NCBI RefSeq assembly: GCF_021249345.1
Contig: NZ_CP089588.1
Span: 3,038,001-3,102,000, forward strand
Source of the DNA: Halobacterium wangiae
GTDB lineage: Archaea; Halobacteriota; Halobacteria; Halobacteriales; Halobacteriaceae
Reading direction: 5' to 3'
Length of the DNA stretch: 64,000 bases
How positions within the stretch are numbered: position 1 is the stretch's first letter; each line of letters opens with the position of its first letter. The position numbers were made by a program, and so were the translations under genes. Shown in pieces: positions 40,825-64,000 of this stretch. The notes under the pieces are model-generated. The model worked only from the letters and a program-made list of their open reading frames with translations. It made no database searches and was not told the DNA's origin.

Positions 40825-41709
40825 GTGCTCCGCCAGCGCCTCCCGTCGGTCGGCCACGACACCGTTGGCGTCCTCCTCGTCCTCGTCTCCGCGGCCGGAT
40901 TCGGGACACTCGGCATCTTCGGCGTCTACGCCCAGCGCGCCGGCCTCTCCATCCCGACGGTGCTCGTCTACCGGTTCGTGCTGGCGACCCTGATCGTCTG
41001 GGGGCTGCTCGCGTGGACCGGACGACTGACGCTGCTCCGCGGCCGCGCGCTGGCGACCGGCCTCGGCCTCGGCGCGTTCGGCTACGCGGCGATGAGCGGG
41101 CTCTACTTCCTCGGTCTGGAGTTCATGACGCCCGGGATGGTCGCCATCGTCCTCTACACGTACCCGGCGTTCGTCGTCGTGCTCGCGGTGCTGGCCATCG
41201 GCGAGCAGGTCGGCCCGAAGACGGTGGTCGCGCTCGCGCTCTCGCTGGGCGGCGTGGCGCTCGCCATCGGCGCGAACCCGGCCGGCGCGTCGGTCGTCGG
41301 CATCCTCATCGTGCTCGGCGCCTCCATCGCCTACGCCGCCTACATCACGCTCTCCCGGCGGATGCTCGTCTCCACGCACCCGCTGGTGTTGACCGCCCAC
41401 GTCCTCCCCGCGGCCGGCGTCACGTTCGTCGCCATCGGCGCTGGAACTGGCTCGCTGACGGTGCCGTCTGCGGCGTCCACGTGGGGCGTTCTCGTCGGCA
41501 TCGGGACACTCGCGACGGCCATCCCGGTGTTCACGTTCTTCGCGGGACTGGAACGCATCGGTGCCAGCCGGAGCGGCATCGTCAGCACCGTCGAACCCCC
41601 GATTACGGTGGCGCTCGGCGCGGTCCTCTTCGGCGACCCCGTCACCGTCGTCACGGTGGTCGGCGGTGCGCTCATCCTCTCCGCCGTCGTCGTCCTCCAC
41701 AGGCGGTGA
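40825..41709 (+). CDS. EamA-family (DMT) transporter
   Basis: A 294-residue permease with ten helices in two EamA halves. The first helix pattern is GVLLVLVSAAGFGTLGIFGVYA and the C-terminal repeat contains GASRSGIVSTVEPPITVALGAVLFGD, the conserved end of the second EamA unit. Likely an exporter of small metabolites. GTG at 40825 is preferred because a GAGTTATC box is about 25-30 bases before it. A longer frame from 40744 would add a basic, non-conserved N-terminus. Confidence 0.87.
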   Translation: MLRQRLPSVGHDTVGVLLVLVSAAGFGTLGIFGVYAQRAGLSIPTVLVYRFVLATLIVWGLLAWTGRLTLLRGRALATGLGLGAFGYAAMSGLYFLGLEFMTPGMVAIVLYTYPAFVVVLAVLAIGEQVGPKTVVALALSLGGVALAIGANPAGASVVGILIVLGASIAYAAYITLSRRMLVSTHPLVLTAHVLPAAGVTFVAIGAGTGSLTVPSAASTWGVLVGIGTLATAIPVFTFFAGLERIGASRSGIVSTVEPPITVALGAVLFGDPVTVVTVVGGALILSAVVVLHRR

Positions 41710-44673: not shown

Positions 44674-44743
44674 GTGTGTGCTAACGAGACGCACAGGTTT
44701 CAACGTTCAGCCGCAGTACCGCGGTCCGCACCGTCCGCGCCGC

Positions 44744-47946: not shown

Positions 47947-48732
47947 CTACGAGTCCCGGAGCGCCGCGAACTCCTCGCGGACGATGGCGGCGTGGGCGTC
48001 CGTGACGTGCTCCAGGACGGTCTCGCCGGCTTCGGCGGTCGCCGGACTGGCGTCGCCCAGAACGCCGTTGTCCGCGTGCGTCTCGACGCCCTCCGCGAAC
48101 AGCGCCGCCGCGGACACCGGGCCGGTGTACCCCTCGGGGAGGTCGTCCGCGACGAGTTCGGGAGCGACGGCGAGCACCATCGCCGTCTCGCTCGCGCCCG
48201 CGTGGACGACCGGCTCTTCGACGTCGATTCCCGCCTCCCGGAGCCCCGACTCCAGCAGTTCCATGTAGCGTCTGAGTCCCGTGACCGCGATCACGTCGAC
48301 GTCCGTCTCGCGCGCCAGTTCCGGGAACGCGGCCTCGACGACCGGGAACGAGCCACCGTGTCCGGGGAGGACGACGACGCGCTCGAACCCCTGTGCTTCG
48401 AACGAATCGACGTAGTCCCGGAGGAGCGCGGTCAGCGTCTCCGGAGAGACGGAGATCGTCCCCGGGAAGCCCGTGTGTTCGGTCGAGGGACCGACCGGAA
48501 TCGCGGGGGCGACTAACGCGCCCCCGAGTCGTCGCGCGACGCGCTCTGCGAGTTCGGCGGCGAGTCGCGTGTCGGTGTCGAGTGGGAGGTGGGGGCCGTG
48601 CTGTTCGGTCGCACCGAGGGGGACGACGACGGTGTCGACGCCCCCCTCCAGGGCCGCTTCGACGTCTGTCCACGACAGTTCCGCGAGCCGCACACTGTCG
48701 CGGTCGGCCGTTTCCTGGTCGTCCTCGTCCAT
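47947..48732 (-). CDS. mftE: Mycofactocin peptidase MftE (creatininase family)
   Basis: A 261-residue creatininase-fold metallohydrolase. LGATEQHGPHLPLDTDT (metal-binding E.HG.HLP..TD), LPGHGGSFPV and HAGASETAMVL are the family motifs. In mycofactocin synthesis MftE cleaves the modified precursor to release the C-terminal Val-Tyr derived dipeptide. Its divergent position 109 bases from the MftA precursor gene makes that role much more likely than creatinine or F420-type chemistry. ATG at 48730-48732 is chosen; a GTG 24 bases upstream is an alternative. Confidence 0.88.
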   Translation of the reverse strand: MDEDDQETADRDSVRLAELSWTDVEAALEGGVDTVVVPLGATEQHGPHLPLDTDTRLAAELAERVARRLGGALVAPAIPVGPSTEHTGFPGTISVSPETLTALLRDYVDSFEAQGFERVVVLPGHGGSFPVVEAAFPELARETDVDVIAVTGLRRYMELLESGLREAGIDVEEPVVHAGASETAMVLAVAPELVADDLPEGYTGPVSAAALFAEGVETHADNGVLGDASPATAEAGETVLEHVTDAHAAIVREEFAALRDS

Positions 48733-48841
48733 GCTGATGAGTGTCCAGCCGTCCACAAGGCTGTTGTCCCGACCCGGTAGCGGGTCGGAGACAGTTCAGC
48801 TGGTCACAACGTATTTGGCGCTACCCCCTGTTAGTCATTGT

Positions 48842-48967
48842 ATGTCACAGACGGCCGCCGACGGAGACGACGACGCCGAACTGGACGCCGACGCCGAGGA
48901 GCCGGAGATTGAGGAGGACCTCTTCGAGGAGGAACTCCGGATCGACGGCATCTGCGGCGTCTACTGA
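48842..48967 (+). CDS. mftA: Mycofactocin precursor peptide MftA
   Basis: A 41-residue, extremely acidic peptide (MSQTAADGDD...) ending IDGICGVY. The C-terminal -GVY with the upstream IDGxC motif is the mycofactocin precursor signature: MftC decarboxylates and crosslinks the terminal Val-Tyr, and MftE releases it. The leader is longer in Asp/Glu than bacterial ones, as expected in a halophile. ACGTATTTGG about 27-34 bases before the ATG is a plausible promoter. The stop is one base before mftB. Short genes of this kind are easily missed. Confidence 0.93.
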   Translation: MSQTAADGDDDAELDADAEEPEIEEDLFEEELRIDGICGVY

Positions 48968-48968
48968 G

Positions 48969-49211
48969 ATGCCAGCGACCGTCTTCCGGCCCGCCCACGT
49001 CAAGTTCCGGCGGGAACCCGAGGGAGGTCTCGTCTACGACCACGAGAACTACGGCTACGAGGACGCCTCGATGTACGCCGTCAGCGACACCGTCATCGAC
49101 GTCCTGGAGTTCGTCGAGGAGCCGCGACCCCGTTCGGAGGTCGAAGCCGCGTTCTCGCCGGCCGTGGTCGACTCGCTGGTCGAGCGCGGGGTGCTCTCGG
49201 ATGGCGGGTGA
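48969..49211 (+). CDS. mftB: Mycofactocin precursor chaperone MftB
   Basis: An 80-residue PqqD-like protein that should hold the MftA leader and present it to the radical SAM enzyme. Sequence RPAHVKFRREPEGGLVYDHENYGYEDASMYAVSD follows the MftB/RRE pattern, with a C-terminal helix-rich part around VEAAFSPAVVDSLVERGVL. It starts 1 base after mftA and overlaps mftC by 11 bases. Assignment is by sequence and exact context. Confidence 0.9.
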   Translation: MPATVFRPAHVKFRREPEGGLVYDHENYGYEDASMYAVSDTVIDVLEFVEEPRPRSEVEAAFSPAVVDSLVERGVLSDGG

Positions 49212-50160
49212 ACCGCTGTCCGCGCCGGTCACCATCACCTGGGAGGTGACGCTGGGCTGTAACCTCCACTGCGACCACTGCCTCTCGGGCAGCGGACCCG
49301 GCCACCAGATGCCGAACGAGCTCACCACGGAGCAGGCCAGGGCGTTCATCGACGAACTCGACGAAATGGACGTCTTCCAGGTGAACATCGGCGGCGGCGA
49401 ACCGTTCGTCCGCCCCGACATGCTGGAACTGCTCGCAGAGCTCACGAGCCGCGACATCTCGACGTGCGTGAGCACGAACGGCACGCAACTCGACGAGGCG
49501 ACCCTCGACCGCGTCGAGGCGATGGACCCGCTGTTCCTGCAGGTGAGCATGGACGGCCTGCGCGCCGACAACGACGCCATCCGCGGCGACGGCGTCTACG
49601 ACCAGGTCCTCGACTCCCTCGAACGACTGGAGGACCGCGACATCGGGACGACGGTCAACACCGTGGTCACCCGCCAGAACGTCGCGGACCTCCCCGACAT
49701 CTACGACCTCGCGGAGGCCCACGGCGCGGGCCTGCGCCTCAACCGTTTCCGGCCCAGCGGACGGGGCGAGGACACCTGGGACGAGTTCCGACTCCGCGAG
49801 GACCAGATTCGGTTCCTCCACGAGTGGATCGAGGACCACCCCGACGTCCGGACGGGGGACTCCTTCTTCTACCTCAACGCCCTCGGCGAGGTGCGCAACA
49901 ACACCCTCAAGCAGTGCGGCGCGGGGTCGATGACCTGCCTCGTCGACCCGGTCGGCGACGTCTTCCCCTGTGCGTTCACCCAGTGGGACCACCTCGCGTC
50001 CGGCAACGTCGTCGAGGACGGCTTCCAGGCGGCGTGGGACGAGATCGCCAACCTCCGCAGCCAGATCGACGACCACGAGGGCTGTCCCGCCGTGGCGATG
50101 GGGAGTTCGGACCCGGACGGCGAGGACCCACAGCTCCGGGCCATCCTCTCTGGCGACTGA
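49201..50160 (+). CDS. mftC: Mycofactocin radical SAM maturase MftC
   Basis: A 319-residue radical SAM/SPASM enzyme. The [4Fe-4S] motif CNLHCDHC is at residues 20-27 (CxxxCxxC). GGGEPFVRPDM near 62 is the SAM-binding GGE region. The C-terminal SPASM-type Cys residues occur in QCGAGSMTC, FPCAFTQWD and GCPAV. MftC oxidatively decarboxylates the precursor Tyr and then joins it to Val. It overlaps mftB by 11 bases and is 6 bases before mftF. Confidence 0.95.
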   Translation: MAGEPLSAPVTITWEVTLGCNLHCDHCLSGSGPGHQMPNELTTEQARAFIDELDEMDVFQVNIGGGEPFVRPDMLELLAELTSRDISTCVSTNGTQLDEATLDRVEAMDPLFLQVSMDGLRADNDAIRGDGVYDQVLDSLERLEDRDIGTTVNTVVTRQNVADLPDIYDLAEAHGAGLRLNRFRPSGRGEDTWDEFRLREDQIRFLHEWIEDHPDVRTGDSFFYLNALGEVRNNTLKQCGAGSMTCLVDPVGDVFPCAFTQWDHLASGNVVEDGFQAAWDEIANLRSQIDDHEGCPAVAMGSSDPDGEDPQLRAILSGD

Positions 50161-50166
50161 CCCCGC

Positions 50167-51768
50167 ATGTCGGCTCCTGCCCAGGTGGAGCGTCGCGGCG
50201 AGTACCGGTTGCGCGACTCCGCCGCTATCGTCGGCAGTGTCCTCGTCTCGACGCAGCCACTCGTCGCCACGGGCCTCAACGACGCCGCCGTCGACCTCCT
50301 TGCGACGCTGGACGACGAAGCGTACCGGTCGCCGGCGACCGTCGCCGCGGAGACGACGTACGGCGTCGACGCAGTCGTCGACCTCTTTAAGCGCCTCCAC
50401 GAGCGCGGCTTCCTCGCTTGGCGCCCGGGACGCGACCCCTCGTTTCAGCCGCCGGTGTCGGTGGTCGTCACCGTCCGCGACGACCGCGAGCAACTCCTGG
50501 CGTGCCTCGACGCGCTCGCCGCACTCGACTACCCCGACTACGAGGTCGTGGTCGTAGACGACGGCTCCACCGACGGCACGCGCGAGGCCGCGGCCGGCCA
50601 CACGCTCGCCGTGCAGGGACGAATCAGGGTCGTCCAGGTAGGGTCGGCCGACGACCCGCTCGGCATCGGCGCGTCGCGCAACCGCGGCGTCGAAGCGGCG
50701 ACCCACGACATCGTCGCGTTCACCGACGCCGACTGCCGTCCGACGGCGGGGTGGCTCGCCGACCTCGTGCCGTGTCTGGCGGGCCACGACCTGATCGGCG
50801 GGCGCGTCCGGCCGGCGGGCGACAGCACGGCGAGCGCCTACGAGGGCGTCGCCTCCTCGCTGGACATGGGCGCCTACGGCTCCCGCGTCGACCCGCACGG
50901 CGACACGCCGTACCTCCCGACGGCGAACCTCGTGGGCCGCAGAGCCGTCTTCGAGGCCGCCCCGTTCCCCGACCGCGACGTCGCGGAGGACGTCGACGTC
51001 TGCTGGCGCGCGCTCGCCGCCGGCTTCGACGCCGTCTACACGCCCACGGGCGTCGTCCACCACGACTACCGGCGCTCGCACGGGGACCTCGCAGGGCGTC
51101 GGTCGACCTACGGCGCGTCCGAGGCGCTGCTCGCCAGCGAGTACGGCCGACAGGGAACCCGTGTTCGCGTTCCACTCGACGCGCTCCTCGTCGTGGTCCT
51201 CGCCGTCGCCGGTCTGCTCTCGCCGGGAGTCACTGGGACGGTTGCGCTCGGTGCCGCGGGCCTCTTCGGCGGCGCCGGACTGCTCGCTCGACTCGCGACG
51301 ACCCTCCGGCAGTACCGGCGTCTGCAGTCGGTCGTCTCGGTCCGCGACGTCGTCCGGAGCCGGGGACGCGAAGCCGTCTCCACGGTGTATGCGCTCTCGC
51401 GGGAGGTGACGCGGTACTACAGCGGACCGGTCCTCGTCGTCGCGCTGCTCGCGTGGTTCGTGGCGCCAACCGTCGGCCTCGCGCTCGGGGCCAGCCTCGC
51501 CCTGGCTGCGCTCCTTCCGCTGGTCGTCGAGTACGCCGTCCACCGCCCCGGAGGGTCGTTCGTCGGCTACGCGGGCTACTACCTCGCCGACCAGGCTGGC
51601 TACCAGTACGGCGTCTACCGCGGCGCGTTCGGCCACCGCACGCTCGCCCACCTCGACCCGACCGGGCGGTTCCGACTCTCCGGACCCGGCGCTGGCCGAC
51701 TCACGAGCGCCAGAACGGGGGCGGTTCCGTCGTCGAACGTGGGGTCGGAGCGGAACCGGCTACAGTAG
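50167..51768 (+). CDS. mftF: Mycofactocin glycosyltransferase MftF
   Basis: A 533-residue protein. An N-terminal PqqD-like or winged domain (about residues 1-95) is followed by a GT2 glycosyltransferase: VVVTVRDDREQLLACLDAL, VVVVDDGSTDGTREAA and FTDADCRPTAGWLADL are the GT-A motifs. Two C-terminal helices (about 345-385 and 420-450) suggest membrane association. In mycobacteria MftF adds beta-1,4-glucose units to premycofactocin. Its stop overlaps the convergent etfB-like gene by 9 bases. Role by cluster context and full-length match. Confidence 0.92.
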   Translation: MSAPAQVERRGEYRLRDSAAIVGSVLVSTQPLVATGLNDAAVDLLATLDDEAYRSPATVAAETTYGVDAVVDLFKRLHERGFLAWRPGRDPSFQPPVSVVVTVRDDREQLLACLDALAALDYPDYEVVVVDDGSTDGTREAAAGHTLAVQGRIRVVQVGSADDPLGIGASRNRGVEAATHDIVAFTDADCRPTAGWLADLVPCLAGHDLIGGRVRPAGDSTASAYEGVASSLDMGAYGSRVDPHGDTPYLPTANLVGRRAVFEAAPFPDRDVAEDVDVCWRALAAGFDAVYTPTGVVHHDYRRSHGDLAGRRSTYGASEALLASEYGRQGTRVRVPLDALLVVVLAVAGLLSPGVTGTVALGAAGLFGGAGLLARLATTLRQYRRLQSVVSVRDVVRSRGREAVSTVYALSREVTRYYSGPVLVVALLAWFVAPTVGLALGASLALAALLPLVVEYAVHRPGGSFVGYAGYYLADQAGYQYGVYRGAFGHRTLAHLDPTGRFRLSGPGAGRLTSARTGAVPSSNVGSERNRLQ

Positions 51769-52617
51769 TTCGTTCTCGCGGAGGAACGCGACGACGCGCT
51801 GGGCGGCCTCCTCCGGGGGCGCCTCGATGCGCTCGCCGGCGCTCCGGGTCCTGCCGGTGCCCCGGCCGAGCATCCGGTAGATGCGCTCCTCGACTGTCCC
51901 GGTCCGCGGTGGCCGACCACGGCCCCAGCGTTCGTTCGGTCGCACGTGTTCGACGGTGGCCGCCCCGACGCTCATCGAGAACCGGGACTCGCCGGGCGCG
52001 ACGTCGGTCAGTTCCACCGTCTCGATGCTCGCTCGCCGGCCGGCGATGACCGTGTCGAGGGGCGCGCGCGTCGGGTTCGCGAACCCGGCGTCGACGCCGA
52101 CGACGGCCGGGAGGGCGACGGCGACGGCCTCCTGGCGCCCGATGGCGAGTTTGCGCTGGACAGCCAGTTCGTCCTCGCTCACCTCGACCGGGACGTCGAG
52201 GTGCTCCGGCCCGAGTTCGGTCGCCCGCGTCGCGCTCGGCCAGCCGAGTCGTTCGGCCGCGAGGCCCGCGATCTCAGAACCGGAGAACGACGATGACTGC
52301 CCGACGAACAGCGCGTCCGGTGACTCGCGGGCGGTCACGCGCGCGAGCACTGTCGCGAACTTCTCGCCGGCGGTGCGCTCGACCGGGTCGAAGGAGACGT
52401 GGACGCCCCGGTCGGCGCCCCGTTCGAGCGCGGAACGCACGCAGTCCTCGGCCGTCTCCCCGCCGACGCCGACGGCCGTGACCTCGTCGGCGACCTGGTG
52501 GGCGGCCTCAAGCGCGACGCGGTCGTCGATGCTCAACTGCCAGCGGTACGGGTCGGCGTTCCCGTCGTCGTCGACGACGCGGTGCGGTTCCGGGCGTGCG
52601 GTGACGACTGCTCTCAT
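51760..52617 (-). CDS. etfB: Electron transfer flavoprotein beta subunit (FixA-like)
   Basis: A 285-residue EtfB/FixA-type protein. It has the N-terminal EtfB beginning (VVTARPEPHRVVDDDGN), central FVGQSSSFSGSEIAGLAAERLGWP, the LAVQRKLAIGRQEAVAVALPAVVGVD segment and a C-terminal domain. It forms the ETF dimer with EtfA at 55.1 kb. It overlaps the SDR gene by ATGA. Position next to the mycofactocin genes suggests that ETF may carry their electrons, but this is inference. Confidence 0.9.
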   Translation of the reverse strand: MRAVVTARPEPHRVVDDDGNADPYRWQLSIDDRVALEAAHQVADEVTAVGVGGETAEDCVRSALERGADRGVHVSFDPVERTAGEKFATVLARVTARESPDALFVGQSSSFSGSEIAGLAAERLGWPSATRATELGPEHLDVPVEVSEDELAVQRKLAIGRQEAVAVALPAVVGVDAGFANPTRAPLDTVIAGRRASIETVELTDVAPGESRFSMSVGAATVEHVRPNERWGRGRPPRTGTVEERIYRMLGRGTGRTRSAGERIEAPPEEAAQRVVAFLRENELL

Positions 52618-53402
52618 CGTGCCGTGTACCCCCCGTCGACGGGAATCGTCGCCCCGGTCACGAACGCCGCGTCCGCCGACGCGAGGAACGCGATGGTGCG
52701 GGCGATGTCTACCGGGTCGGCCATCCCGAGCGGCGTCTCCTCGACCATCGACGCGAGCGTGTCGGGGACGTCGCTGTCGTCGCCGTCGTCGTCCATCGCC
52801 GCCTCCAGCATCGGTGTCTGGACGACGCCCGGGCAGATGGTGTTGGCCCGTATCTCCGGCGCGTACTCGACGGCGATGGAGCGCGTGAGCGAGACGAGAG
52901 CGCCCTTCGTCGCGGTGTAGACGTCCATCCCGGGTTCGGCGACGAGCGCCGCGATGGAGGCGTTGTTGACGACCACGCCCGTGCCGTCGCTCGTCTCGAG
53001 CATGGCGGCGATGGCGTGCTTGCAGGCGTACATCGGCCCCCGGAGGTTGATGCCGGTGAGGAACTCGTAGCCCTCCTCGGAGAACTCCGTGATGGGACCG
53101 TCGGCCTCCCGCGACGCGACGGCCGCGTTGTTGACGAGTACGTCCACGCTCCCGAACGTCTCCTCGGCGTGGTCGACCATCGCGGCCACGGCGTCCTCGT
53201 CGCTCACGTCGGTCTCGACGAACGACGCACTCCCCGCGGTCTCGTCGTCCGATTCGATGGACGCGACCGTCTGTTCGCCGCCGTCCGCGTCGAGGTCCGC
53301 GACGACCACGTCGGCTCCTCGCTCGGCGAGCACCCGCGACGTCTCTGCGCCGATCCCGCTCGCCCCGCCCGTCACGACGGCCGTTCGGTTGTCGAGTCGC
53401 AT
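52614..53402 (-). CDS. Classical SDR oxidoreductase
   Basis: A 262-residue NAD(P)-dependent SDR. VVTGGASGIGAET at residues 9-21 is the nucleotide site, NNAAVAS the NNAG-like motif, and YTATKGALVSLTR the catalytic YxxxK. It ends with PVDGGYTAR. It does not show the GQGRSHA motif of the mycofactocin-coupled SDRs at 61-64 kb, so it may use free NAD(P). It sits inside the etf operon, ATGA-overlapping etfB and 2 bases after fixX. Confidence 0.92.
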   Translation of the reverse strand: MRLDNRTAVVTGGASGIGAETSRVLAERGADVVVADLDADGGEQTVASIESDDETAGSASFVETDVSDEDAVAAMVDHAEETFGSVDVLVNNAAVASREADGPITEFSEEGYEFLTGINLRGPMYACKHAIAAMLETSDGTGVVVNNASIAALVAEPGMDVYTATKGALVSLTRSIAVEYAPEIRANTICPGVVQTPMLEAAMDDDGDDSDVPDTLASMVEETPLGMADPVDIARTIAFLASADAAFVTGATIPVDGGYTAR

Positions 53403-53404
53403 GG

Positions 53405-53695
53405 TCACCCGAAGTCGAACTCGACCCCCTTGCCGCCCTCCGACTTCGACCAGGAGACGGCGCCCTTCTCGGGGTCGTTCCCGCAGAACACCATGCAGGC
53501 GCCACACTCCACGCACGGTTCGTACGCGAAGTAGATGCCGCCCTTCTGGTCGGCCTGGTAGTCGAAGCACTCGGCGGGACAGAGGTGGAGACACGGTTTG
53601 TCCTCGCAGGTGACGCAGTAGTCGTTGTCGACGGTGATGTGGGCCGCCTCGCTGACGTCCCACTGCACCGTCTCGAGGCTGTCCTGGACACCCAT
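53405..53695 (-). CDS. fixX: Ferredoxin-like protein FixX
   Basis: A 96-residue ferredoxin-like protein with YCVTCEDKPCLHLCP and EPCVECGACMVFC, two Cys clusters as in FixX. It is the [Fe-S] part of the Etf-quinone oxidoreductase, working with the FixC-like flavoprotein at 53.8 kb. It is the first gene of the fixX-SDR-etfB unit. On its strand an AGTTATCAC box about 45 bases upstream could be its own promoter. Confidence 0.9.
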   Translation of the reverse strand: MGVQDSLETVQWDVSEAAHITVDNDYCVTCEDKPCLHLCPAECFDYQADQKGGIYFAYEPCVECGACMVFCGNDPEKGAVSWSKSEGGKGVEFDFG

Positions 53696-53799: not shown

Positions 53800-55113
53800 T
53801 CACAGCGAACGCAGCCCCCGGTAGCCGTCTTTCAGCAGGTCCAGAAAGCCGGCGTCGCTGTTGCGGAACGCGCGGTAGGCCTGCTTCCACGTCAACCCCT
53901 GAGCGTCGCTGCCGGCCGAGTACATCCCGCGCAACGTCTCCGTCGCGATTCCGGGGTAGGCGCCGTACATCCGCTCGTTCTTCAGGAACTCCGGGAGGTG
54001 GCGGTGCTGTTTCATGTCCTGGAGGACGTAGGAGTTCTCCAGCCACTGGTCGTAGCGCCGGCCGAACGCCTCCCAGTTGCCCTCGCGGTCGCAGGCGATG
54101 GCGGACTCCGCGGCGAGCAGACCGCTCTTGATGCCGTAGTCGAGTCCGCGGAACGTGTACCCCTTGTTGAGCACGAGACCGGCGGCGTCACCCACTAGCG
54201 CGATACGGCGGTCGTAGCGGTCCGGGAGCGACTCGTAGGAGAGTTCGGGCAGCAGGATTCCCTGGTACTCCTGGAGGCTCTCGCCCTGGACGTACGGCCG
54301 GACGGTGTCCAGTTCCACGAACTCCTCGAGCAGCGAGTACAGCGGCGTCCCGCTCTCCGCGTACCCCTCGTCGCCGAGCCACCGGAGCACCTCCAGGCCG
54401 CCGACGGCGCCGACCGAGATGTACTCGTCGTACGTGTAGATGAAGTAGCCGATGGTCGGCGCGCCCTCCGGGAAGCCCGTGTAGATGTACGCCGCGCCCT
54501 CGTCGCTGTCGAGGTTGAACCGCTCGTTGATGGTGTCACGACCGACGTCGATGACCTTCTTCACCGACAGCGCCATGTCCGGGTTGCGCATCGTCCGCTG
54601 GATGCCGGTCGCCCGCCCCACGGTGGTGTTCACACCGTCGGCACCGATGACGGCGTGACAGGCCAGGTCGCCGTTCTCGCGGTCGGTGTGGACGACCGCG
54701 TGGTCCCGGGCCTGCGTGACGTCTCGCACCGTGGTCTCCGGGACGAACACCGCGCCCTCGTCGACGGCGCGGTCGACGAACCAACGGTCGAACTTCCCGA
54801 GCATCAGCGTGTAGTTCGGCTCCTCGAGGAGGTCCATGTCGCGGTAGCCGATCGAGACCTCCGCGTCGCCGTGGAGCAGTTTGATGTTGTGCTCGACGAC
54901 GTGGCGCTCCAGGGGCGCCTCCTCGGGGAACTCGGGGACGAGGTCCGCGAGGATCTGTCCGTAGAGGACGCCCCCCGTGACGTTCTTCATCCCGGGCTGT
55001 TTCGCGCGCTCGACGAGCGCCACGTCGAAGTCCTCGGCGGCGAGTTTGTACGCGGCGGCGGTGCCGGCCCGACCCGCCCCGACGACCACGACGTCGAAGT
55101 CCACGGCCGTCAT
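53800..55113 (-). CDS. fixC: Etf-quinone oxidoreductase flavoprotein (FixC-like)
   Basis: A 437-residue flavoprotein. VVVGAGRAGTAAAYKLA at residues 8-24 binds FAD, GMKNVTGGVLYG follows, and DAAGLVLNKGYTFRGLDYGIKSG near 330 is the conserved FixC/Etf-QO second motif. It reduces membrane quinone with electrons from ETF. The ATG at 55111-55113 overlaps the stop of etfA (ATGA). The [4Fe-4S] part is on FixX. Confidence 0.92.
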   Translation of the reverse strand: MTAVDFDVVVVGAGRAGTAAAYKLAAEDFDVALVERAKQPGMKNVTGGVLYGQILADLVPEFPEEAPLERHVVEHNIKLLHGDAEVSIGYRDMDLLEEPNYTLMLGKFDRWFVDRAVDEGAVFVPETTVRDVTQARDHAVVHTDRENGDLACHAVIGADGVNTTVGRATGIQRTMRNPDMALSVKKVIDVGRDTINERFNLDSDEGAAYIYTGFPEGAPTIGYFIYTYDEYISVGAVGGLEVLRWLGDEGYAESGTPLYSLLEEFVELDTVRPYVQGESLQEYQGILLPELSYESLPDRYDRRIALVGDAAGLVLNKGYTFRGLDYGIKSGLLAAESAIACDREGNWEAFGRRYDQWLENSYVLQDMKQHRHLPEFLKNERMYGAYPGIATETLRGMYSAGSDAQGLTWKQAYRAFRNSDAGFLDLLKDGYRGLRSL

Positions 55114-56117
55114 TCGGCCACCTCCTCGGCGGCCTCGCCACCACTGTCGTCGCCCACCGCGGCCTCCCGGAGCGCCTCGACCAGCGCCGGCCCGTACTCG
55201 TAGACGTCGCCGACGATGCCCACGTCCGCGAAGTTGAAGATGCGGGCCTCGGGGTCGGTGTTGATGGGGATCAGGAACTCCGCGTTCACCGAGCGCATGT
55301 GGTAGGAGTCCCCGGAGATGGCGACGGGGACGTACAGTTCGACGTCGATCTCCTTGCCCGTCACGCCGATCTGGCGGTCGTAGGGCACCCAACCCTCGTC
55401 GGAGGGCGGGCGGGACGCGCCGACGGCGGCGCCGAGCGCGTCGGCCAGTTCGGTGACGAGGTCGAAGCCGTCCGGCGTGCCCAGACCGAAGCCGCCGGCG
55501 ACGATACGCCGCGCCTTCGCGAGGTCCGACTCGGGGACCTCGAACGTCTCGACGTGGCGGACCCGTTCGTCCGTCTCGACGTCGACCTCGACGGTGCGCT
55601 CGGCGGGCGCTCCGGTCGGCGGCGCCGAGGGCGTCCCGAGGGCCTCCGTGTTGAGCGTCACGACCGGCGGCCCGCGCTCGAAGGATATCTCGGCGTACGC
55701 CCGGCCGCCGTACGCCGTCCGACCGGCGAGCAGTTCGCCCTCGCGGACCCTGAGCAGGCAGTCGGTGACGCACCCGCCCCGAAGTCGCCGGGCCGTTGCC
55801 GCCGCGAGGTCGGTGCCGTCTGCGGTGTCCGGCAGGAGCACTGCACGGGCGTCCGCGGCGAGGTCCGCGAGCGCCTCACTCCGGGGGCGGACGCCGGCAG
55901 CCCCCGCGGTGAACGTCCCCTCCTCGCGAACGACGTGGACGACCTCGTCGGGGCTGCCGGCGCGCACCGCGGCCGGCTGGACGACTCCGTCGAACGCCAC
56001 GGCGACGACCGAGGGCGTGTCGCCCACCTGGTCGTCGAGCACCTCGACCAGCCGGTGTGCTTCTTCGAGTAGCGCTACGTCCTCGGACTCCGGAACGATG
56101 AGCAACTCTCCTGTCAT
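55110..56117 (-). CDS. etfA: Electron transfer flavoprotein alpha subunit (FixB-like)
   Basis: A 335-residue EtfA. The C-terminal FAD domain has RPPSDEGWVPYDRQIGVTG, AISGDSYHM and NTDPEARIFNFADVGIVGD, all typical. It pairs with EtfB at 51.8 kb. The N-terminal third is more diverged. It lies 73 bases downstream of the OYE-type gene and upstream of fixC, so the order is OYE, etfA, fixC, then the fixX-SDR-etfB unit. Confidence 0.94.
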   Translation of the reverse strand: MTGELLIVPESEDVALLEEAHRLVEVLDDQVGDTPSVVAVAFDGVVQPAAVRAGSPDEVVHVVREEGTFTAGAAGVRPRSEALADLAADARAVLLPDTADGTDLAAATARRLRGGCVTDCLLRVREGELLAGRTAYGGRAYAEISFERGPPVVTLNTEALGTPSAPPTGAPAERTVEVDVETDERVRHVETFEVPESDLAKARRIVAGGFGLGTPDGFDLVTELADALGAAVGASRPPSDEGWVPYDRQIGVTGKEIDVELYVPVAISGDSYHMRSVNAEFLIPINTDPEARIFNFADVGIVGDVYEYGPALVEALREAAVGDDSGGEAAEEVAE

Positions 56118-56190: not shown

Positions 56191-58131
56191 TCATGCGGAC
56201 AGCTCCCTCGCCAGCATCTCGCCGTCGTAGATCGCCTTGTCGATGAGTCGCGGCGCGACGCAGTCGCCGATCCTGTGCACCGACCCCTCGTCGAACCCCT
56301 GCGCTTCGAGCGCTCCCGCGAGCCCGGTTCTGGCCTCCCGGCGCTCCGCGACGACCAGCGAGTCCGTCGGCAGCGTCGTCAGCTCCTCGGAGTAGACGTT
56401 GAGCAGTTGCAGCTCCTGGTCCTCGAAGCCGATGATGGTGTTGTGAGTCACGATGTCCACGCCGTGCTCGTACAGCGTCTCGAGGAACGGCGGGACGTTC
56501 GTCCCCTCCATCTGGTCGCCCGGATGGTACGAGGTCGTGACGAACGTGACGTCGTGGCCGCTCGTCGCGAGGAACTCCGCCACGCTGACGCCGGCCGCGT
56601 GCTTGTTGTTGTCGAAGACGACGACGGAGTCCCCGACCGGTTCGCCCTGTAGCACGTCCCAGGAGCGGTGGACGTCCGGGCCGGCGAGGTCCGGCTGGCG
56701 TTCGCTGGCGCCGATGGCGACCACGACGTCGTCCCACGCGCGCGGCGAGACGTCCGCCGGGGTCACCTCGGCCCCCAGTTCGACGGTGACGTCGCGGTTG
56801 TCGAGCTGGTTGCGGAGGTTGCGGACGGCGTCGCCGAACTCCCGCCGCGAGTCGACCTGTGTGGCGATGTTCGACTGGCCGCCAAGGTCGTCCTCGCGCT
56901 CGCGGAGCGTCACGTTCTGGCCGAGGTCGGCCGCCGTGACGGCGAACGACAGCCCCGCCGGGCCGCCGCCGACGACCAGTACCTCACGGGGCGACCGGGT
57001 CTCATCGACGTCCTCGACGTGCGGAATCTTCGTCTCGCGGCCGGAGCGCGGCGTCTGGATGCAGCCGACGTGGCCGTTCGTGTGGATGCCGCCGAGGCAG
57101 TTCTGGTTGCACGCGATGCAGTGGGTGACCTCCTCGTCCTCACCCTGCCGGACCTTCCGGACGGTGTCGGCGTCGCAGATGAGCTGTCGGCACATCCCGA
57201 TGAAGTCCGCGCGACCCTCCTCGAGGATGTCGTTGGCCTTCGTGAGGTCGTTGATGCGGCCGGCGGCGATGACGGGGATGTCGACGAGTTCCCGGGCGGC
57301 GCCGTAGTACTCGGCCGTGTAGCCCAGCGGCGCGTGCATCGGCGCGTCCGTGATGTACAGCTTCGAGATGGTGGCGATGTCCGAGTCGATGAAGTCCAGA
57401 CTCGGGTGGAGACGGCGGATGACCTCCACGGCGTAGTCGTAGTCGTAGCCGCCGTCCTCCATCTCGTCGAGCGAGAAGCGGATGCCGACCGGGAACTCCT
57501 CGCCGACCCGGTCGCGGATGGCCTCGACCACCTCGTTGACGAGGCGGACGCGGTTGTCGATGGAGCCGCCGTACTTGTCCGTGCGGTGGTTGTACTTCGG
57601 GGAGACGAACTGGCGGAGGATGCCGTCGTGGCCGGCCTTCAGTTCGACGCCGTCGAGGTCACCCTCCTTGCAGTGTTCGGCGGTCTTCGCGAAGCCGAGT
57701 TTCACCTCCTCGATGTCCTCCTGTTCCATCCGCTTGGGCATCTCGTAGCCGTACTCGGTCGGGACGGCCGACGGCGCCCACGTTTCCCGCATCGCTGCCT
57801 CGCCGGTGTCCTCGCCGCCGGTGTGCTGGAGCTGCGCGAACACCTTGGTGCCGTGGCGGTGGCAGGCCTCGGCGATCATCCGCAACCGGGGGACGACGTC
57901 GGGGTCGTACCCGGTCGCGTACATCGGGTTCGACGAACTCGGGTGGACGAGCATACTCGACGGACCGACGATGAGGCCGACGCCACCGCGGGCCCGCGCC
58001 TCGTAGTAGGCGGCGTCGCGCTCGGTCGGCAGGCCGTCCTCGGCGAAGCCCGTCTCGTGGGCGAGGAACACCGTCCGGTTCTTGACCGACACCGGGCCGA
58101 TCCGCCGTGGCGTGAAGAGCATCTCGGTCAT
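56191..58131 (-). CDS. OYE/FadH-type flavin oxidoreductase (mycofactocin-system type)
   Basis: A 646-residue enzyme of the 2,4-dienoyl-CoA reductase/OYE family. Residues 1-365 form the FMN barrel with VFLAHETGFAEDG, LQHTGGE and CRQLICDAD. The [4Fe-4S] cluster uses C338, C341, C345 and C357. The C-terminal part (about 385-646) has the FAD/NAD motif VVGGGPAGLSFAV. Families of this type recur beside mycofactocin genes in bacteria. The ATG at 58129-58131 is chosen; a second Met three codons on is possible. It probably reduces an enone or related substrate using ETF or NADH. Confidence 0.9.
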   Translation of the reverse strand: MTEMLFTPRRIGPVSVKNRTVFLAHETGFAEDGLPTERDAAYYEARARGGVGLIVGPSSMLVHPSSSNPMYATGYDPDVVPRLRMIAEACHRHGTKVFAQLQHTGGEDTGEAAMRETWAPSAVPTEYGYEMPKRMEQEDIEEVKLGFAKTAEHCKEGDLDGVELKAGHDGILRQFVSPKYNHRTDKYGGSIDNRVRLVNEVVEAIRDRVGEEFPVGIRFSLDEMEDGGYDYDYAVEVIRRLHPSLDFIDSDIATISKLYITDAPMHAPLGYTAEYYGAARELVDIPVIAAGRINDLTKANDILEEGRADFIGMCRQLICDADTVRKVRQGEDEEVTHCIACNQNCLGGIHTNGHVGCIQTPRSGRETKIPHVEDVDETRSPREVLVVGGGPAGLSFAVTAADLGQNVTLREREDDLGGQSNIATQVDSRREFGDAVRNLRNQLDNRDVTVELGAEVTPADVSPRAWDDVVVAIGASERQPDLAGPDVHRSWDVLQGEPVGDSVVVFDNNKHAAGVSVAEFLATSGHDVTFVTTSYHPGDQMEGTNVPPFLETLYEHGVDIVTHNTIIGFEDQELQLLNVYSEELTTLPTDSLVVAERREARTGLAGALEAQGFDEGSVHRIGDCVAPRLIDKAIYDGEMLARELSA

Positions 58132-58251: not shown

Positions 58252-58275
58252 ATCACGACCGTGTGTACTAGTGAC

Positions 58276-60270
58276 ATGGAGGAGTCGTACCCGTTCTCCG
58301 CCATCGTCGACCAGGGGGCGATGAAGCGGGCGCTGGTACTCAACGCCGTCAACCCCGACATCAGCGGCGTCCTCGTCCGGGGCGAACGGGGGACCGCGAA
58401 GTCCACGGCGGTCCGTGCCCTCGCAGACGTGCTCCCGCCAGTCGAAGTCGTCGCGGACTGTCCGTACCGCTGTCCACCGGGCGAGCGCGACCGGATGTGC
58501 GCCGAGTGCCGCGAACGAACGGACGCTGGCGAGCAACTCCCCGTCGAACACCGGCCGATGCGCGTGGTGGACCTGCCGCTGAACGCCTCCGAGGACCGCG
58601 TCGTCGGCAGCATCGACCTGCAGTCGGCGGTCCGCGAGGGGCGCCAGACGTTCGAACCCGGCATCCTCGCGGAGGCCAACCGCAACATCCTCTACGTCGA
58701 CGAGGTCAACCTCCTCGACGACCACATCGTCGACGTCCTGCTGGACGCGGCAGCGATGGGTGAGAACATCGTCGAACGCGAAGGCGTCTCCGTTCGACAT
58801 CCGGCGGAGTTCGTCCTCGTCGGCACGATGAACCCCGAGGAGGGCGAGTTGCGCCCACAGCTCCTCGACCGATTCGACCTGCTGGTGGACGTCGTAGCCA
58901 GCGGCGACGCCGACGAGCGCGTCGAGATCGCCGAGCGCCGGGAGCGCTTCGACGCGGACCCGGCGGCGTTTCGCGCGGCGTACGCCGACGAACAGCGCGA
59001 ACTGGCCGACCGGATCCGGTCGGCCAGACAGCGACTCACCGCCGTCGACGTCCCGACGTCGGTGTTGCACGAGGCGTCCTACGAGGCGGTCCGGCAGCGA
59101 GCGCACGGGATGCGGGCGGACATCGCCGTCAACCGCGTCGCGCGAACCATCGCCGCGCTGGACGGCGACGACGTGGTGAACGGCGCGCACGTGGCGGAGG
59201 CCCAGTACTTCGTGTTCCCCCACCGCGTCGAGGGCGTCGCCGAGATGTCCTTCGGCGAGGGCGTCATGTCCTCGGAGAGCGACGAAGAGGCGGTAGGCGA
59301 GGAGGACCAGGACGACGAACCCGAGGGCGACGACACCGCGGACACGGAGGGCGGCGGCCTCCCCATCGCGGAGGGCGAGGAGTCCTACGACGTCGACCGG
59401 ACCGCCATCGACCCGGAACGGGACCGGACGATGCGGGACGCGCTCGCGCGTCGGACCCCGTCGCGCGTCGCCGTCCGGAGCGGTCGCTACGTCCGCTCGC
59501 GGCTCCAGGAGGACGTCAACGACGTGGCCATCGACGCGACGGTCCGGGCGGCCGCACCCCACCAGCGGACGCGACAGCCCGAGGACCAGAGTGGCATCGT
59601 CGTCGAAGCACGGGACCTCCGGCAGAAGCTCCGAGAACGGACCGCGCGAGCGCTCGTCGTGTTCGTCGTCGACGCCAGCGGGAGCGTGATGAGTGGCCGC
59701 CAGATGATGGAGACCAAACGCGGCCTGCTGTCGCTCATCGAGGACGCCTACCGCGCCCGGGACCGGGTCGCCGTCGTCGTGTTCCGCGGCGAGAATGCGT
59801 TCACGCTCGTCGAGCCGACGCGGAACCACCGGATGGCCCGGGACGCCGTCTCGCGGTTGACCGTCGGTGGGAACACACCGCTTGCGCACGGACTCGTTGA
59901 GGCCTACCGCATCGTCGAACGCGAGAAGCGCCGCGACCAGGACCTGTACCCGCTGGTCGTCCTGCTGTCGGACGGCCAGTCGAACGTGGACTACCGCGAG
60001 GACGGCGACGCGAGGGAGGACGCGCTCCGCGCGGCGTCGCTGTTCGCCGACGCCGACGTCCCCTCGGTGTTCGTCGACACCGGCTACGAACTCGACACGA
60101 CGCCGGACGAGATCTGGACCGCACGGAAGGCCGAGCGGATGAAGCGCAAGCGCTTCGAGCGGAACCAGACGTTCGCGGAGACGATGGGCGCCGACTACCT
60201 GCCACTGGTCGAACTCCCGCGGGACACACAGCTCCCGACGGACCAGGACTCGGAGGGGCAGGAGGCGTGA
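58276..60270 (+). CDS. ChlI/ChlD-type ATPase with VWA domain
   Basis: A 664-residue fusion like magnesium or cobalt chelatase ChlID. Walker [10 protein letters not shown] is at residues 36-44 and Walker B region [12 protein letters not shown] near 141. An acidic linker (about 335-370) leads to a VWA domain with [14 protein letters not shown], the MIDAS DxSxS motif. No large chelatase subunit (CobN/ChlH) is seen nearby, so a metal-insertion role is not secure. It could act as a MoxR/VWA-like chaperone for a neighbouring enzyme. Start by TATA position. It shares long near-identical DNA with the next gene. Confidence 0.87.
58555..58847 (+). repeat. Copy 1 of a near-identical tract shared by two ATPase genes
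   Basis: Matches 60670-60962 at a constant offset of 2115 bases. Bases 58555-58619 are identical (65 of 65). From 58650 to 58847 there is one difference (58813 G, A at 60928). The neighbouring parts of the genes differ at many synonymous positions. Confidence 0.85.
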
Positions 60271-60342: not shown

Positions 60343-61428
60343 ATGACTGACCACGACACGACCCAGACGACACGCGACGCCCGGGAGACAGCGAGCCAGA
60401 CGTTCCCGTTCACCGCCATCGTCGACCAGGAGGAGATGAAACGGGCGCTGGTGCTCAACGCCGTCAACCCCGACATCGGCGGGGTCCTCATCCGGGGCGA
60501 ACGGGGGACCGCGAAGTCAACGGCCGTGCGTGCGCTCGCCGACGTACTGCCGGACATCGAGGTGGTCGCGGACTGCCAGTACAGCTGTCCACCGGACGAA
60601 CGCGACCGGATGTGCGCCGAGTGCCGCGAACGGACGGCTGCCGGGGAGGACCTCCCTTCACGCTCCCGACCGATGCGCGTGGTGGACCTGCCGCTGAACG
60701 CCTCCGAGGACCGCGTCGTCGGCAGCATCGACCTCGAGCGCGCCGTCCGGGAGGGCGAACGCGAGTTCGAACCCGGCATCCTCGCGGAGGCCAACCGCAA
60801 CATCCTCTACGTCGACGAGGTCAACCTCCTCGACGACCACATCGTCGACGTCCTGCTGGACGCGGCAGCGATGGGTGAGAACATCGTCGAACGCGAAGGC
60901 GTCTCCGTTCGACATCCGGCGGAGTTCATCCTCGTCGGCACGATGAACCCCGAGGAGGGCGACCTGCGCCCCCAGTTGCTCGACCGCTTCGGTCTCGTCG
61001 TGGACGTGGAGGGTGTCAACGAGGTCGACGACCGCGTCGAGATCAGCCAGCGGCGGGCGACCTTCGAGGCCGACCCGGACGCGTTCCGCGCGGAGTACGC
61101 GGCGGCGCAGGCGGACCTCCGGGACGACATCGTCGGGGCGCGCGAGCGCCTCCCGGCCGTCGAACTCGGCGACGACGTCGCGAGACTCGTCGCGGGGATG
61201 AACATCGAACTCGACGTCGACGGCCACCGTGGCGACATCACGCTGCGACGCGCGGCGCGGACGCTCGCGGCGTTCGAGTCGGAGCCGGCCGTCTCGGCGC
61301 GGACGGTGCGTCGCGTCGCCAGGATGGCCCTGAACCACCGACTCCAGCGGCTCCCGTTCGAGGAGGAAGAGAAGGACGTCATGAGCGCCTTCCACGACGT
61401 CCGCCGCGAACTGGGGTTGGAGGACTGA
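60343..61428 (+). CDS. ChlI-type AAA+ ATPase
   Basis: A 361-residue ATPase close to the N-terminal half of the previous gene. Walker [10 protein letters not shown] and Walker [13 protein letters not shown] are intact. It has no VWA domain. The 72-base gap and same strand suggest one operon. The two may assemble as a heteromeric ring, the shorter one acting as the plain ATPase. A tract of about 200 bases is almost identical between the two genes, probably by gene conversion. Confidence 0.87.
60670..60962 (+). repeat. Copy 2 of the near-identical tract
   Basis: Second copy of the tract described at 58555. The identity includes synonymous third positions, which is not expected for old paralogues. 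Confidence 0.85.
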
Positions 61429-61654: not shown

Positions 61655-62476
61655 ATGCCACAGTACGACTTCGACGGCCAGGTCGCGTTCGTCACCGGTG
61701 CCGGACGCGGTCAGGGTCGCTCGCACGCACAGCACTACGCACGAAACGGCGCCGACGTCGTCCTCACGGACATCTGTGAGAACGTCGAGACCAACCCGTA
61801 CGACCTCAGTACGCCGGACGACCTCGAAGAGACGGCGAGTCTCGTCGAGGACGAGGGCCAGCAGGCGCTGCCCATCGAGATGGACGTCCGCGACGAGGCC
61901 GAGGTACAGGCCGCCGTCGAGGAGGCCCTCGACGAGTTCGGCCGCATCGACATCCTCGCGAACAACGCCGGCATCTTCAACGGCTCGGAGATGACCGAGA
62001 TGGACGAGCAGATGTGGGACGAGATGATCGACACCAACCTCAAGGGTGTCTGGCTCTGCTCGAAGCACGTCGGCAAGCACTTCATCGACCGTGGCGACGG
62101 CGGCAAGATCGTCACGACGTCCTCGACCGCAGGGTACGTCGGGACGCCGCTGAACGGCCACTACGTCGCCACGAAACACGGTGTGCGCGGGATGACGAAG
62201 ACGCTCGCCCTCGAACTCGCGGAGTACGACGTCAACGTCAACGCCGTCGCCCCGACCGGCATCGAGACCCCGATGATCTCGGGCTACGTCGAAGCCTACG
62301 GCGAGGAGACGCTCAACGAGATCGCGGAGATGACCGGCCCCTTCAACCTGTTCGGCGACGGCGGGATGATCGGCGCGGAGCACATCAGCGAGGCGTACAT
62401 GTGGCTCTCCAGCGACGCCGCTCGCTACGTCACCGGCATCACGCTCCCCGTCGACGCCGGATTCACCGCGAAGTGA
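61655..62476 (+). CDS. Mycofactocin-coupled SDR, copy 1
   Basis: A 273-residue SDR of the nicotinoprotein type. The cofactor loop reads GAGRGQGRSHAQHYAR, the GQGRSHA motif of the mycofactocin-coupled SDR subfamily, and DICENV follows the second strand. It has NNAGIFNG and the catalytic YVATKHG (YxxxK). It ends PVDAGFTAK. Members hold NAD tightly and pass hydride to mycofactocin. Its AUG follows a strong promoter region. The substrate alcohol is unknown. Confidence 0.92.
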   Translation: MPQYDFDGQVAFVTGAGRGQGRSHAQHYARNGADVVLTDICENVETNPYDLSTPDDLEETASLVEDEGQQALPIEMDVRDEAEVQAAVEEALDEFGRIDILANNAGIFNGSEMTEMDEQMWDEMIDTNLKGVWLCSKHVGKHFIDRGDGGKIVTTSSTAGYVGTPLNGHYVATKHGVRGMTKTLALELAEYDVNVNAVAPTGIETPMISGYVEAYGEETLNEIAEMTGPFNLFGDGGMIGAEHISEAYMWLSSDAARYVTGITLPVDAGFTAK

Positions 62477-62506: not shown

Positions 62507-63334
62507 ATGGTAGAATACGACTTCGGCGGCAAGGTGGCGTTGGTCACTGGTGCCGCCCACGGCCAGGGACGGTCGCACGCACAGCACTACGCGAGACACG
62601 GCGCCGACGTCGTCGCACTCGACCTCAACGAGAACAAGGACACCGTACCCTACGACCTGGGGACGAGCGACGAACTCGAGGAGACAGCCCAGATGGTAGA
62701 GGACGAAGGCCAGCAGGCCCTCACCGTCGAGGCCGACGTCTCAGAGGAGGCCGAGGTACAGGCCGCCGTCGAGGAGGCCCTCGACGAGTTCGGCCATATC
62801 GACATCCTCGCGAACAACGCCGGCATCGAGTCCATCGCGGAGGCCACGGAGATGAACGAGGAGACGTGGGACGAACTCGTCGACGTCAACCTCAAGGGCG
62901 TCTGGCTGACCGCCAAGCACGTCGGCAAGCACTTCATCGACCGCGGCGACGGCGGCAAAATCGTCAACACCGCCTCGACGTCCGCCTTCTCGGGCGTCCC
63001 CATCGGGAACGCACACTACGTCTCGGCCAAGCACGGCGTGCGGGGCATGACGAAGACGCTCGCCCTCGAACTCGCCGAGTACGACGTCAACGTCAACGCC
63101 GTCGCACCCACTGCCATCGACACGCCGATGGTGAGCGGCATGGTCGAGGCCTACGGCGAGGAGGTGCTCGACGAGGGCGCCGCGGCGCTCGCCGGACCGT
63201 TCAACATCTTCGACCCGGACGAGATGCTCGAGTCGAGGGACATCAGCGAGGCGTACATGTGGCTCTCCAGTGACGCCGCTCGCTACGTCACCGGCATCAC
63301 GCTCCCGGTCGACGCGGGGTTCCTCGCGAAGTGA
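62507..63334 (+). CDS. Mycofactocin-coupled SDR, copy 2
   Basis: A 275-residue paralogue with GAAHGQGRSHAQHYAR, DLNENK, NNAGIESI and YVSAKHG. It is 30 bases after copy 1. Differences from copy 1 lie mainly in the substrate region (residues about 90-110, 140-155 and 185-230), so it may use another alcohol. Several segments are nearly identical at the DNA level to copies 1 and 3. Confidence 0.92.
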   Translation: MVEYDFGGKVALVTGAAHGQGRSHAQHYARHGADVVALDLNENKDTVPYDLGTSDELEETAQMVEDEGQQALTVEADVSEEAEVQAAVEEALDEFGHIDILANNAGIESIAEATEMNEETWDELVDVNLKGVWLTAKHVGKHFIDRGDGGKIVNTASTSAFSGVPIGNAHYVSAKHGVRGMTKTLALELAEYDVNVNAVAPTAIDTPMVSGMVEAYGEEVLDEGAAALAGPFNIFDPDEMLESRDISEAYMWLSSDAARYVTGITLPVDAGFLAK

Positions 63335-63359: not shown

Positions 63360-64000
63360 ATGCCAACCTACGACTTCAACGACAAGGTCGCGTTCGTCAC
63401 CGGTGCCGCCCACGGCCAGGGTCGCTCGCACGCACAGCACTACGCACGGAACGGGGCGGACGTCGTCGTCACGGACGTCTCGGAGAACATCGACACGGTC
63501 CCCTACGACATGGGGACGAGTGAGGAACTGGAGGAGACGGCGAGTCTCGTCGAGGACGAGGGCCAGCAAGCGCTGCCCATCCAGATGGACGTTCGCGACG
63601 AATCGGCTGTCGAAGCCGCCGTCGAGGAGGCCCTCGACGAGTTCGGCCGCATCGACATCCTCGCGAACAACGCCGGTATCGTCACCGTCTCCGACGCGAC
63701 CGAACTCGACGAGGCGATGTGGGACGAGGTTGTCGACACGAACCTCAAGGGTGTCTGGCTGACCGCCAAGCACGTCGGGAGACACTTCGTCGACCGGGGT
63801 GACGGCGGGAAGATCGTCACGACGACGTCGCAGGCCGGGATGACCGGCAACCCCGGAATCGTCCACTACGTCGCCTCGAAGTGGGGAGTCGTGGGGATGA
63901 CGAAGACGCTCGCCCTCGAACTCGCCGAGTACGACGTCAACGTCAACGCGGTCGCGCCGTCCGTCGTGAACACGCCGATGGTTCCGGGGATGATCGAGGC
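63360..64000 (+). CDS. Mycofactocin-coupled SDR, copy 3, cut by window end
   Basis: The first 213 residues of a third SDR. It has GAAHGQGRSHAQHYAR, DVSENI, NNAGIVTV and YVASKWG. It starts 25 bases after copy 2. It is closest to copy 1 in residues 60-85 (EDEGQQALPIQMDVRDE) and to copy 2 in the 50s. The C-terminus lies outside the window. Confidence 0.92.
   Translation, partial: MPTYDFNDKVAFVTGAAHGQGRSHAQHYARNGADVVVTDVSENIDTVPYDMGTSEELEETASLVEDEGQQALPIQMDVRDESAVEAAVEEALDEFGRIDILANNAGIVTVSDATELDEAMWDEVVDTNLKGVWLTAKHVGRHFVDRGDGGKIVTTTSQAGMTGNPGIVHYVASKWGVVGMTKTLALELAEYDVNVNAVAPSVVNTPMVPGMIE

Follow-up and report, generated by a model that had tools for sequence, protein, structure and literature searches.

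The mycofactocin locus of Halobacterium wangiae

We analysed a stretch of 64,000 nucleotides from Halobacterium wangiae (contig NZ_CP089588.1, positions 3,038,001 to 3,102,000; hereafter, the window), which carries genes of the pathway to mycofactocin (mft), a redox cofactor made from a peptide. A gene for MftE lies divergent from mftA-mftB-mftC-mftF, with a gap of 1 base between mftA and mftB, an overlap of 11 bases between mftB and mftC, and a gap of 6 bases between mftC and mftF. The coordinates, strands and spacing given for these five genes at 47947-51768 in the original prediction, which was made from the sequence alone, were all correct. Families were called by comparing NCBIfam profile scores with the curated cut-offs. 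The genes of the locus in the window are as follows (OYE, Old Yellow Enzyme; ETF, electron transfer flavoprotein; SDR, short-chain dehydrogenase/reductase).

47947..48756, minus strand: mftE-like creatininase-family peptidase (TIGR03964, 155.1 bits; cut-off 172)
48842..48967, plus strand: mftA, precursor peptide of 41 amino acids, ending in EEELRIDGICGVY, with core IDGICGVY (TIGR03969, 34.6 bits; cut-off 25)
48969..49211, plus strand: mftB2, peptide chaperone, cysteine-free (NF043018 (MftB2), 134 bits; cut-off 62)
49201..50160, plus strand: mftC, radical S-adenosylmethionine (SAM) maturase of 319 amino acids (TIGR03962, 303.3 bits; cut-off 265)
50167..51768, plus strand: mftF, GT2 glycosyltransferase (TIGR03965, 296.1 bits; cut-off 280)
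51760..52617, minus strand: etfB, ETF beta subunit of mycofactocin-associated type (best family TIGR04503, 88.8 bits, cut-off of 200 not reached; PF01012)
52614..53402, minus strand: SDR oxidoreductase outside the TIGR03971 class (NF005559, 230 bits)
53405..53695, minus strand: FixX-like ferredoxin (4Fe-4S Pfam matches, one barely above cut-off; conserved together with fixC)
53800..55110, minus strand: FixC-like FAD protein of ETF:quinone oxidoreductase type (NF007450/NF007542 (FixC), 266/244 bits, under the cut-offs)
55110..56117, minus strand: etfA, ETF alpha subunit of mycofactocin-associated type (best family NF038209, 128 bits, cut-off of 240 not reached; PF00766)
56191..58125, minus strand: OYE2, FMN/FAD oxidoreductase nearest to mycofactocin system FadH/OYE family 2 (TIGR03997, 629.6 bits)
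58261..60270, plus strand: AAA and VWA chelatase-like protein (TIGR02442, 664 bits, cut-off of 779 not reached; VWA and AAA domains)
60343..61428, plus strand: AAA chelatase-like ATPase (TIGR02442, 496 bits, and TIGR02030, 449 bits, both under cut-off)
61655..62476, plus strand: mycofactocin-coupled SDR 1 (TIGR03971, 331 bits; cut-off 300)
62507..63334, plus strand: mycofactocin-coupled SDR 2 (TIGR03971, 314 bits; cut-off 300)
63360..64000, plus strand: mycofactocin-coupled SDR 3, interrupted by the end of the window (TIGR03971)

Beyond the window follow three further SDRs and a second OYE (minus strand; 443 bits to TIGR03997), reaching genome position 3107932. The TIGR03971 matches of this genome lie at genome positions 3101378-3105142, and six SDRs in total score above the cut-off. 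The whole locus of about 22 kb, on a single 3.1-Mb contig, thus adds etfB-SDR-fixX-fixC-etfA-OYE2, two chelatase-like genes, six mycofactocin-coupled SDRs and a second OYE to the mft genes. It is a true mycofactocin locus and belongs to a known kind, of which it is a variant. A mycofactocin pathway in a haloarchaeon, as predicted, agrees with MftA, MftB2, MftC and MftF all scoring above their cut-offs, yet it is not new: a mycofactocin cluster on a Haloterrigena turkmenica plasmid was reported by Haft in 2011 (PMC3023750), and public NCBI records already label the genes mftA, mftB2 and mftC. The original prediction overlooked the least ordinary parts, which are a halved SPASM domain in MftC and the accessory block of OYE, ETF, FixCX and SDR genes.

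Distribution among haloarchaea

A sample of 294 genomes from the class contained nine, belonging to six genera, in which MftA scored above its cut-off; 14 control genomes gave no match. H. wangiae was the only positive among ten genomes of its genus. Homologues of mftB, mftC and mftF were present in all nine loci with MftA. A chance open reading frame (ORF) of 41 amino acids in place of mftA is excluded by these above-cut-off matches, which always lie beside mftB and mftC; likewise, MftC and MftF do not fall outside the mycofactocin subfamilies, since both exceed the subfamily cut-offs. In the eight other genomes, MftC was 74-92% identical across its whole length. A separate scan of contigs gave mft loci in Halorubrum, Halobellus, Halolamina, a Haloarculaceae archaeon and a Halobacteriales metagenome-assembled genome. 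In the last of these (QH_2_65_14, L031 9778-12544), etfB directly follows mftC with no mftF between them, and the contig ends soon beyond.

Haloarchaeal MftC lacks the ligands of the second auxiliary cluster

MftC is one of the four enzymes behind the name SPASM. We aligned 15 haloarchaeal and 9 bacterial MftC sequences. The radical SAM cysteines (20, 24 and 27 in the H. wangiae protein) and the cysteines of auxiliary cluster I (Aux I; 239, 246, 257 and 295) were found in all of them. The four cysteines of auxiliary cluster II (Aux II) were found in all nine bacterial sequences but in none of the 15 haloarchaeal ones. In Tsukamurella numbering, those lost are 320, 323 and 329, of the CX2CX5C part, and 351, the final SPASM cysteine. 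MftC had been predicted to carry CNLHCDHC plus SPASM cysteines; this stands for four cysteines of Aux I type and fails for the CX2CX5C cysteines and the last one. The seven-cysteine motif of SPASM domains with two auxiliary clusters (CX9-15GX4C-gap-CX2CX5CX3C-gap-C; PMC6231123) was present in 9 of 9 bacterial and 0 of 15 haloarchaeal sequences in the alignment.

In anSMEcpe, the ligands are 255/261/276/330 for Aux I and 317/320/326/348 for Aux II (PMC5715301). When this assignment is applied, the ligands that the archaeal MftC proteins retain are precisely those of Aux I and the missing ones precisely those of Aux II, a pattern that fits a Twitch domain and not a SPASM domain; Cys295 is placed as the fourth Aux I ligand by alignment only (EGCPAVAM versus GGCMAAKF). 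With CX2CX5CX3C gone and the predicted ligands of one auxiliary cluster kept in 15 of 15, the haloarchaeal domain would be classified as Twitch. A hidden frameshift holding the missing cysteines was excluded, because only 6 bases separate mftC from mftF.

An AlphaFold model of MftC built with 22 sequences had a mean predicted local distance difference test score (pLDDT) of 80.6 and a predicted TM-score (pTM) of 0.83, with about 56 in the region around Cys295; an earlier model from 11 sequences reached a pLDDT of only 57 and was discarded. The closest fold to the predicted structure was that of SkfB, a Twitch maturase of ribosomally synthesized and post-translationally modified peptides (6efn, E 3.6e-17). 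Among proteins of solved structure, SkfB likewise gave the best match by sequence. The two proteins share a single auxiliary cluster site. They differ in that SkfB forms sactionine bonds and has a fused RRE domain and a CXC motif (PMC6231123), whereas MftC here is paired with a separate MftB2.

For residues 239-319 of MftC, the ratio of nonsynonymous to synonymous substitution rates (dN/dS) was 0.02-0.13 in six pairs; dS was saturated in a seventh pair (G007). The shortened C-terminal domain of haloarchaeal MftC is under purifying selection. We found no report of the loss of Aux II ligands in haloarchaeal MftC in the literature searched. As far as those papers show, its occurrence in every haloarchaeal MftC examined (n=15), as judged from the aligned sequences, appears to be new. 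The general role of Aux II in SPASM enzymes has been called unclear (PMC9012708). A conserved MftC lineage that lacks the Aux II ligands and is under purifying selection is a natural experiment, and makes this role directly testable.

Two other positions distinguish the groups. Cys89 was present in 15 of 15 haloarchaeal and 0 of 9 bacterial sequences, and a cysteine ahead of the radical SAM motif in bacterial MftC is replaced in haloarchaea (Thr11 in H. wangiae).

Absence of MftD and MftG

The set of mft genes had been described as a complete core, but mftD and mftG are missing. For MftD (TIGR03966, cut-off 470.85), none of the nine mft-bearing haloarchaeal genomes had a match above the cut-off, and five had weak partial matches only, of about 25 bits or less. 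For MftG (TIGR03970, cut-off 387 bits), none of the nine reached the cut-off, with 42 bits in H. wangiae. The best candidate for an MftD elsewhere in the H. wangiae genome was a protein of 404 amino acids at 1.346 Mb (144.5 and 74.1 bits); it cannot be a general MftD, because a counterpart exists in just four of the nine genomes. MftD is not universal in mycofactocin systems (PMC3023750). About 25% of genomes with MftC lack MftG, and whether these reoxidize mycofactocinol by another route or not at all was left open (PMC11778925). A different flavoprotein set apparently stands in place of MftD and MftG in haloarchaea.

A set of OYE, ETF, FixCX and SDR genes

For OYE2, TIGR03997 was by far the best family (629.6 bits; next 331), but its curated cut-off of 793 was not reached, so that the protein is not a member by NCBI's rule. 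An OYE2-like protein (617-640 bits) and a second OYE (>400 bits) were present in all nine mft-bearing haloarchaeal genomes. No OYE of this class was found in nine congeners lacking mft, where the best score was 156 bits or less. Genes for EtfAB and FixCX adjoin the mft genes in all nine, and SDRs above the TIGR03971 cut-off were present in 9 of 9, versus 0 of 9 in the congeners.

Plasmids of H. turkmenica (pHTUR01) and Halolamina sp. CBA1230 have the gene order seen here: mftE / mftA-B2-C-F / etfB ... fixX-fixC-etfA-OYE2 / VWA-AAA / SDR array. The other haloarchaeal loci share it in rearranged form. In contrast to these two plasmid loci, that of H. wangiae is on the single 3.1-Mb contig. The SDR at 52614..53402 is found in most haloarchaeal mft loci and is missing between etfB and fixX in H. 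turkmenica. The canonical actinobacterial cluster (mftA-B-C-D-E-F-G, Tsukamurella plasmid 23) has in common with the H. wangiae locus MftA, B, C and F, the class of mycofactocin-coupled SDRs and the grouping of MftE. It differs in that the H. wangiae locus lacks mftD and mftG, has an MftC of 319 amino acids without Aux II ligands, and contains the ETF/FixCX and OYE genes.

On bacterial plasmids, we found ten mft clusters of two types that did not overlap. Four (Thermomicrobium, Mycolicibacterium, Tsukamurella and Streptomyces NBC_00080) carried mftD, with no OYE, ETF or FixCX gene beside mft. In the other six, all from Streptomyces, OYE1-OYE2-etfA-fixC-fixX-etfB came straight after mftC, with OYE1 in the position of mftD, and these plasmids lacked a close mftD. 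Saccharopolyspora, too, has TIGR03997 and lacks mftD, and S. erythraea is reported to make methylated mycofactocin (PMC11162802). Together, the exclusion on plasmids and the case of Saccharopolyspora support, without proving, the idea that an OYE or another member of the set carries out the MftD step. These bacterial clusters of OYE type share with the haloarchaeal loci the lack of mftD and TIGR03997 as the best family, and OYE2-etfA-fixC-fixX-etfB is in the same order in the Streptomyces plasmids and in H. wangiae. They differ in that their MftC retains all eight SPASM cysteines, and haloarchaeal and Streptomyces OYE2 are only 39-40% identical. NCBI family names already imply that the OYE/ETF set goes with mft; this analysis adds that the set and mftD exclude each other on plasmids and that the set is strictly present in mft-bearing haloarchaea.

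MftE

The score of MftE (155 bits, with a cut-off of 172) was not clearly above those of other haloarchaeal creatininases. In a tree, MftE and its counterparts at the other loci grouped with three bacterial MftE proteins (support 100/98), apart from 16 other haloarchaeal creatininases, although the branches were long. No mftE was seen in the stretch read of three Halobellus-type loci (L017, L020 and L026, which include those of genomes G095 and G218), and the creatininases tested from elsewhere in G095 and G218 fell into other clades. MftE is not universal in mycofactocin systems (PMC3023750).

Loss of the locus in a congener

In one mft-lacking Halobacterium genome, G003, the flanks match those of H. 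wangiae at 81-90% up to window position 48534, within mftE, and again from genome position 3108151, within a cinA-like gene downstream. The junction is the clean scar of a 21.6-kb deletion of the whole locus, at which the remains of mftE and of the cinA-like gene, both truncated, are fused at a short shared GCGCTC (L112 8784-10464; G003 C1 about 1645339-1645358). Loss in G003 is the simpler reading, because both remnants are parts of genes that are intact in H. wangiae. On this reading, the locus already occupied its present chromosomal position before the two species diverged. A simple, recent gain in H. wangiae is countered by this deletion in at least one of the nine mft-lacking congeners.

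Proposed pathway and alternatives

We consider it probable that haloarchaea have a vertically maintained mycofactocin variant with a one-cluster MftC, in which an OYE carries out the MftD step and EtfAB-FixCX the reoxidation. MftB2 would present MftA to MftC, which, with the radical SAM cluster and one Twitch-like auxiliary cluster (Aux I) in place of two, would decarboxylate and cross-link the C-terminal Val-Tyr. The product would be released by MftE, or by another peptidase where mftE is missing, and then glycosylated by MftF. The MftD step, oxidative deamination to redox-active premycofactocin, would fall to a different enzyme; the likeliest candidate is one or other of the two OYE-type flavoproteins. 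Electrons from substrates would enter mycofactocin via the tandem mycofactocin-coupled SDRs and leave via EtfAB-FixC-FixX to the quinone pool, which is the task of MftG in mycobacteria. In genomes that lack MftG, EtfAB-FixCX would be a natural path for electrons from mycofactocinol to quinone. The sequences show which genes are present and co-occur, that the Aux II ligands are lost, that MftD and MftG are missing and that purifying selection acts; every biochemical step is inferred, above all the roles of the OYE and of ETF/FixCX. The set of OYE, ETF and FixCX is a concrete candidate both for the MftD step in clusters lacking mftD and for the reoxidation of mycofactocinol in the absence of MftG.

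Several points weigh against this scheme. In bacterial MftC, the final product reportedly requires Aux II, while SAM cleavage persists without it (PMC10452713, citing Ayikpoe 2019). The exclusion between mftD and OYE was seen in a search of plasmids only, in clusters that were few, related and mostly from Streptomyces. Orthology of the second haloarchaeal OYE with Streptomyces OYE1 was rejected, as a tree with long branches paired the two OYEs of haloarchaea. Both OYE2 and the ETF proteins of haloarchaea score under the curated cut-offs of the mycofactocin-associated families, and catabolism offers another explanation for OYE, ETF and FixC. The papers searched described no mycofactocin from an archaeon.

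The strongest alternative, which we regard as possible but rather doubtful, takes OYE2, EtfAB and FixCX as catabolic enzymes (for example, in enone reduction or in acyl-CoA or terpenoid oxidation) that share the SDRs, and leaves the MftD step to an unrelated enzyme or to a spontaneous reaction. OYE/FadH proteins of this size also occur on many plasmids without a detected mftC, and chelatase-like genes and several SDRs are part of the locus itself. Against this reading stand the mutual exclusion of mftD and OYE in bacterial clusters, the place of OYE1 in the mftD position, and the strict co-occurrence with mft in haloarchaea; moreover, genomes with MftC and without MftG need another route of reoxidation, or none (PMC11778925).

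That this is an ordinary, known mycofactocin cluster in which the loss of cysteines has no consequence seems unlikely. Archaeal clusters have indeed been known since 2011 and the NCBI names are in place, but the literature searched held no report of the Aux II loss, and Aux II matters according to the bacterial data.

Less likely still is a haloarchaeal cofactor that resembles mycofactocin but carries a head group unlike that of bacteria, owing to an MftC with one auxiliary cluster and to amine removal that is either left out or carried out by an OYE-type flavoenzyme. MftC without Aux II might halt at oxidative decarboxylation or yield another product, and without MftD the amine might be kept or otherwise processed. 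The loss of Aux II ligands in 15 of 15 sequences, the need for Aux II reported for bacterial MftC (PMC10452713) and the lack of MftD in mft-bearing haloarchaea would agree with this. However, the canonical GVY core at the MftA C-terminus and SDRs above the mycofactocin-coupled cut-off in nine of nine genomes suggest the same redox head group, and SkfB, BtrN and MoaA are radical SAM enzymes with one auxiliary cluster and related chemistry (PMC6231123).

A decaying locus with a degenerate MftC, as the C-terminal loss and the deletion in G003 might imply, is very improbable and largely refuted by the dN/dS of the shortened domain, which was 0.02-0.13 in six pairs, the identical loss in 15 of 15, the 74-92% identity of MftC and the intact neighbouring genes.

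Other genes in and near the loci

The two chelatase-like AAA/VWA genes (58261-61428) are also inside the mft loci of Halolamina, H. turkmenica, Halobellus and Halorubrum. On the mft contig of three genomes, there are Zn-dependent dehydrogenases near the mycofactocin class TIGR03989 (cut-off 440): G181:C2:67156-68256 with 422 bits, G108:C51:11712-12812 with 400 bits and G095:C21:76889-77956 with 307 bits. The H. wangiae genome has no Zn-dependent dehydrogenase with as strong a match to TIGR03989. At window positions 41728-44703, about 3 kb from mftE, genes for a thiamine pyrophosphate enzyme and an aldehyde dehydrogenase are adjacent, in a stretch retained in G003. An ORF on the minus strand at 39499-41700, also near the mycofactocin locus, encodes beta-propeller repeats of pyrroloquinoline quinone type (PF13360).

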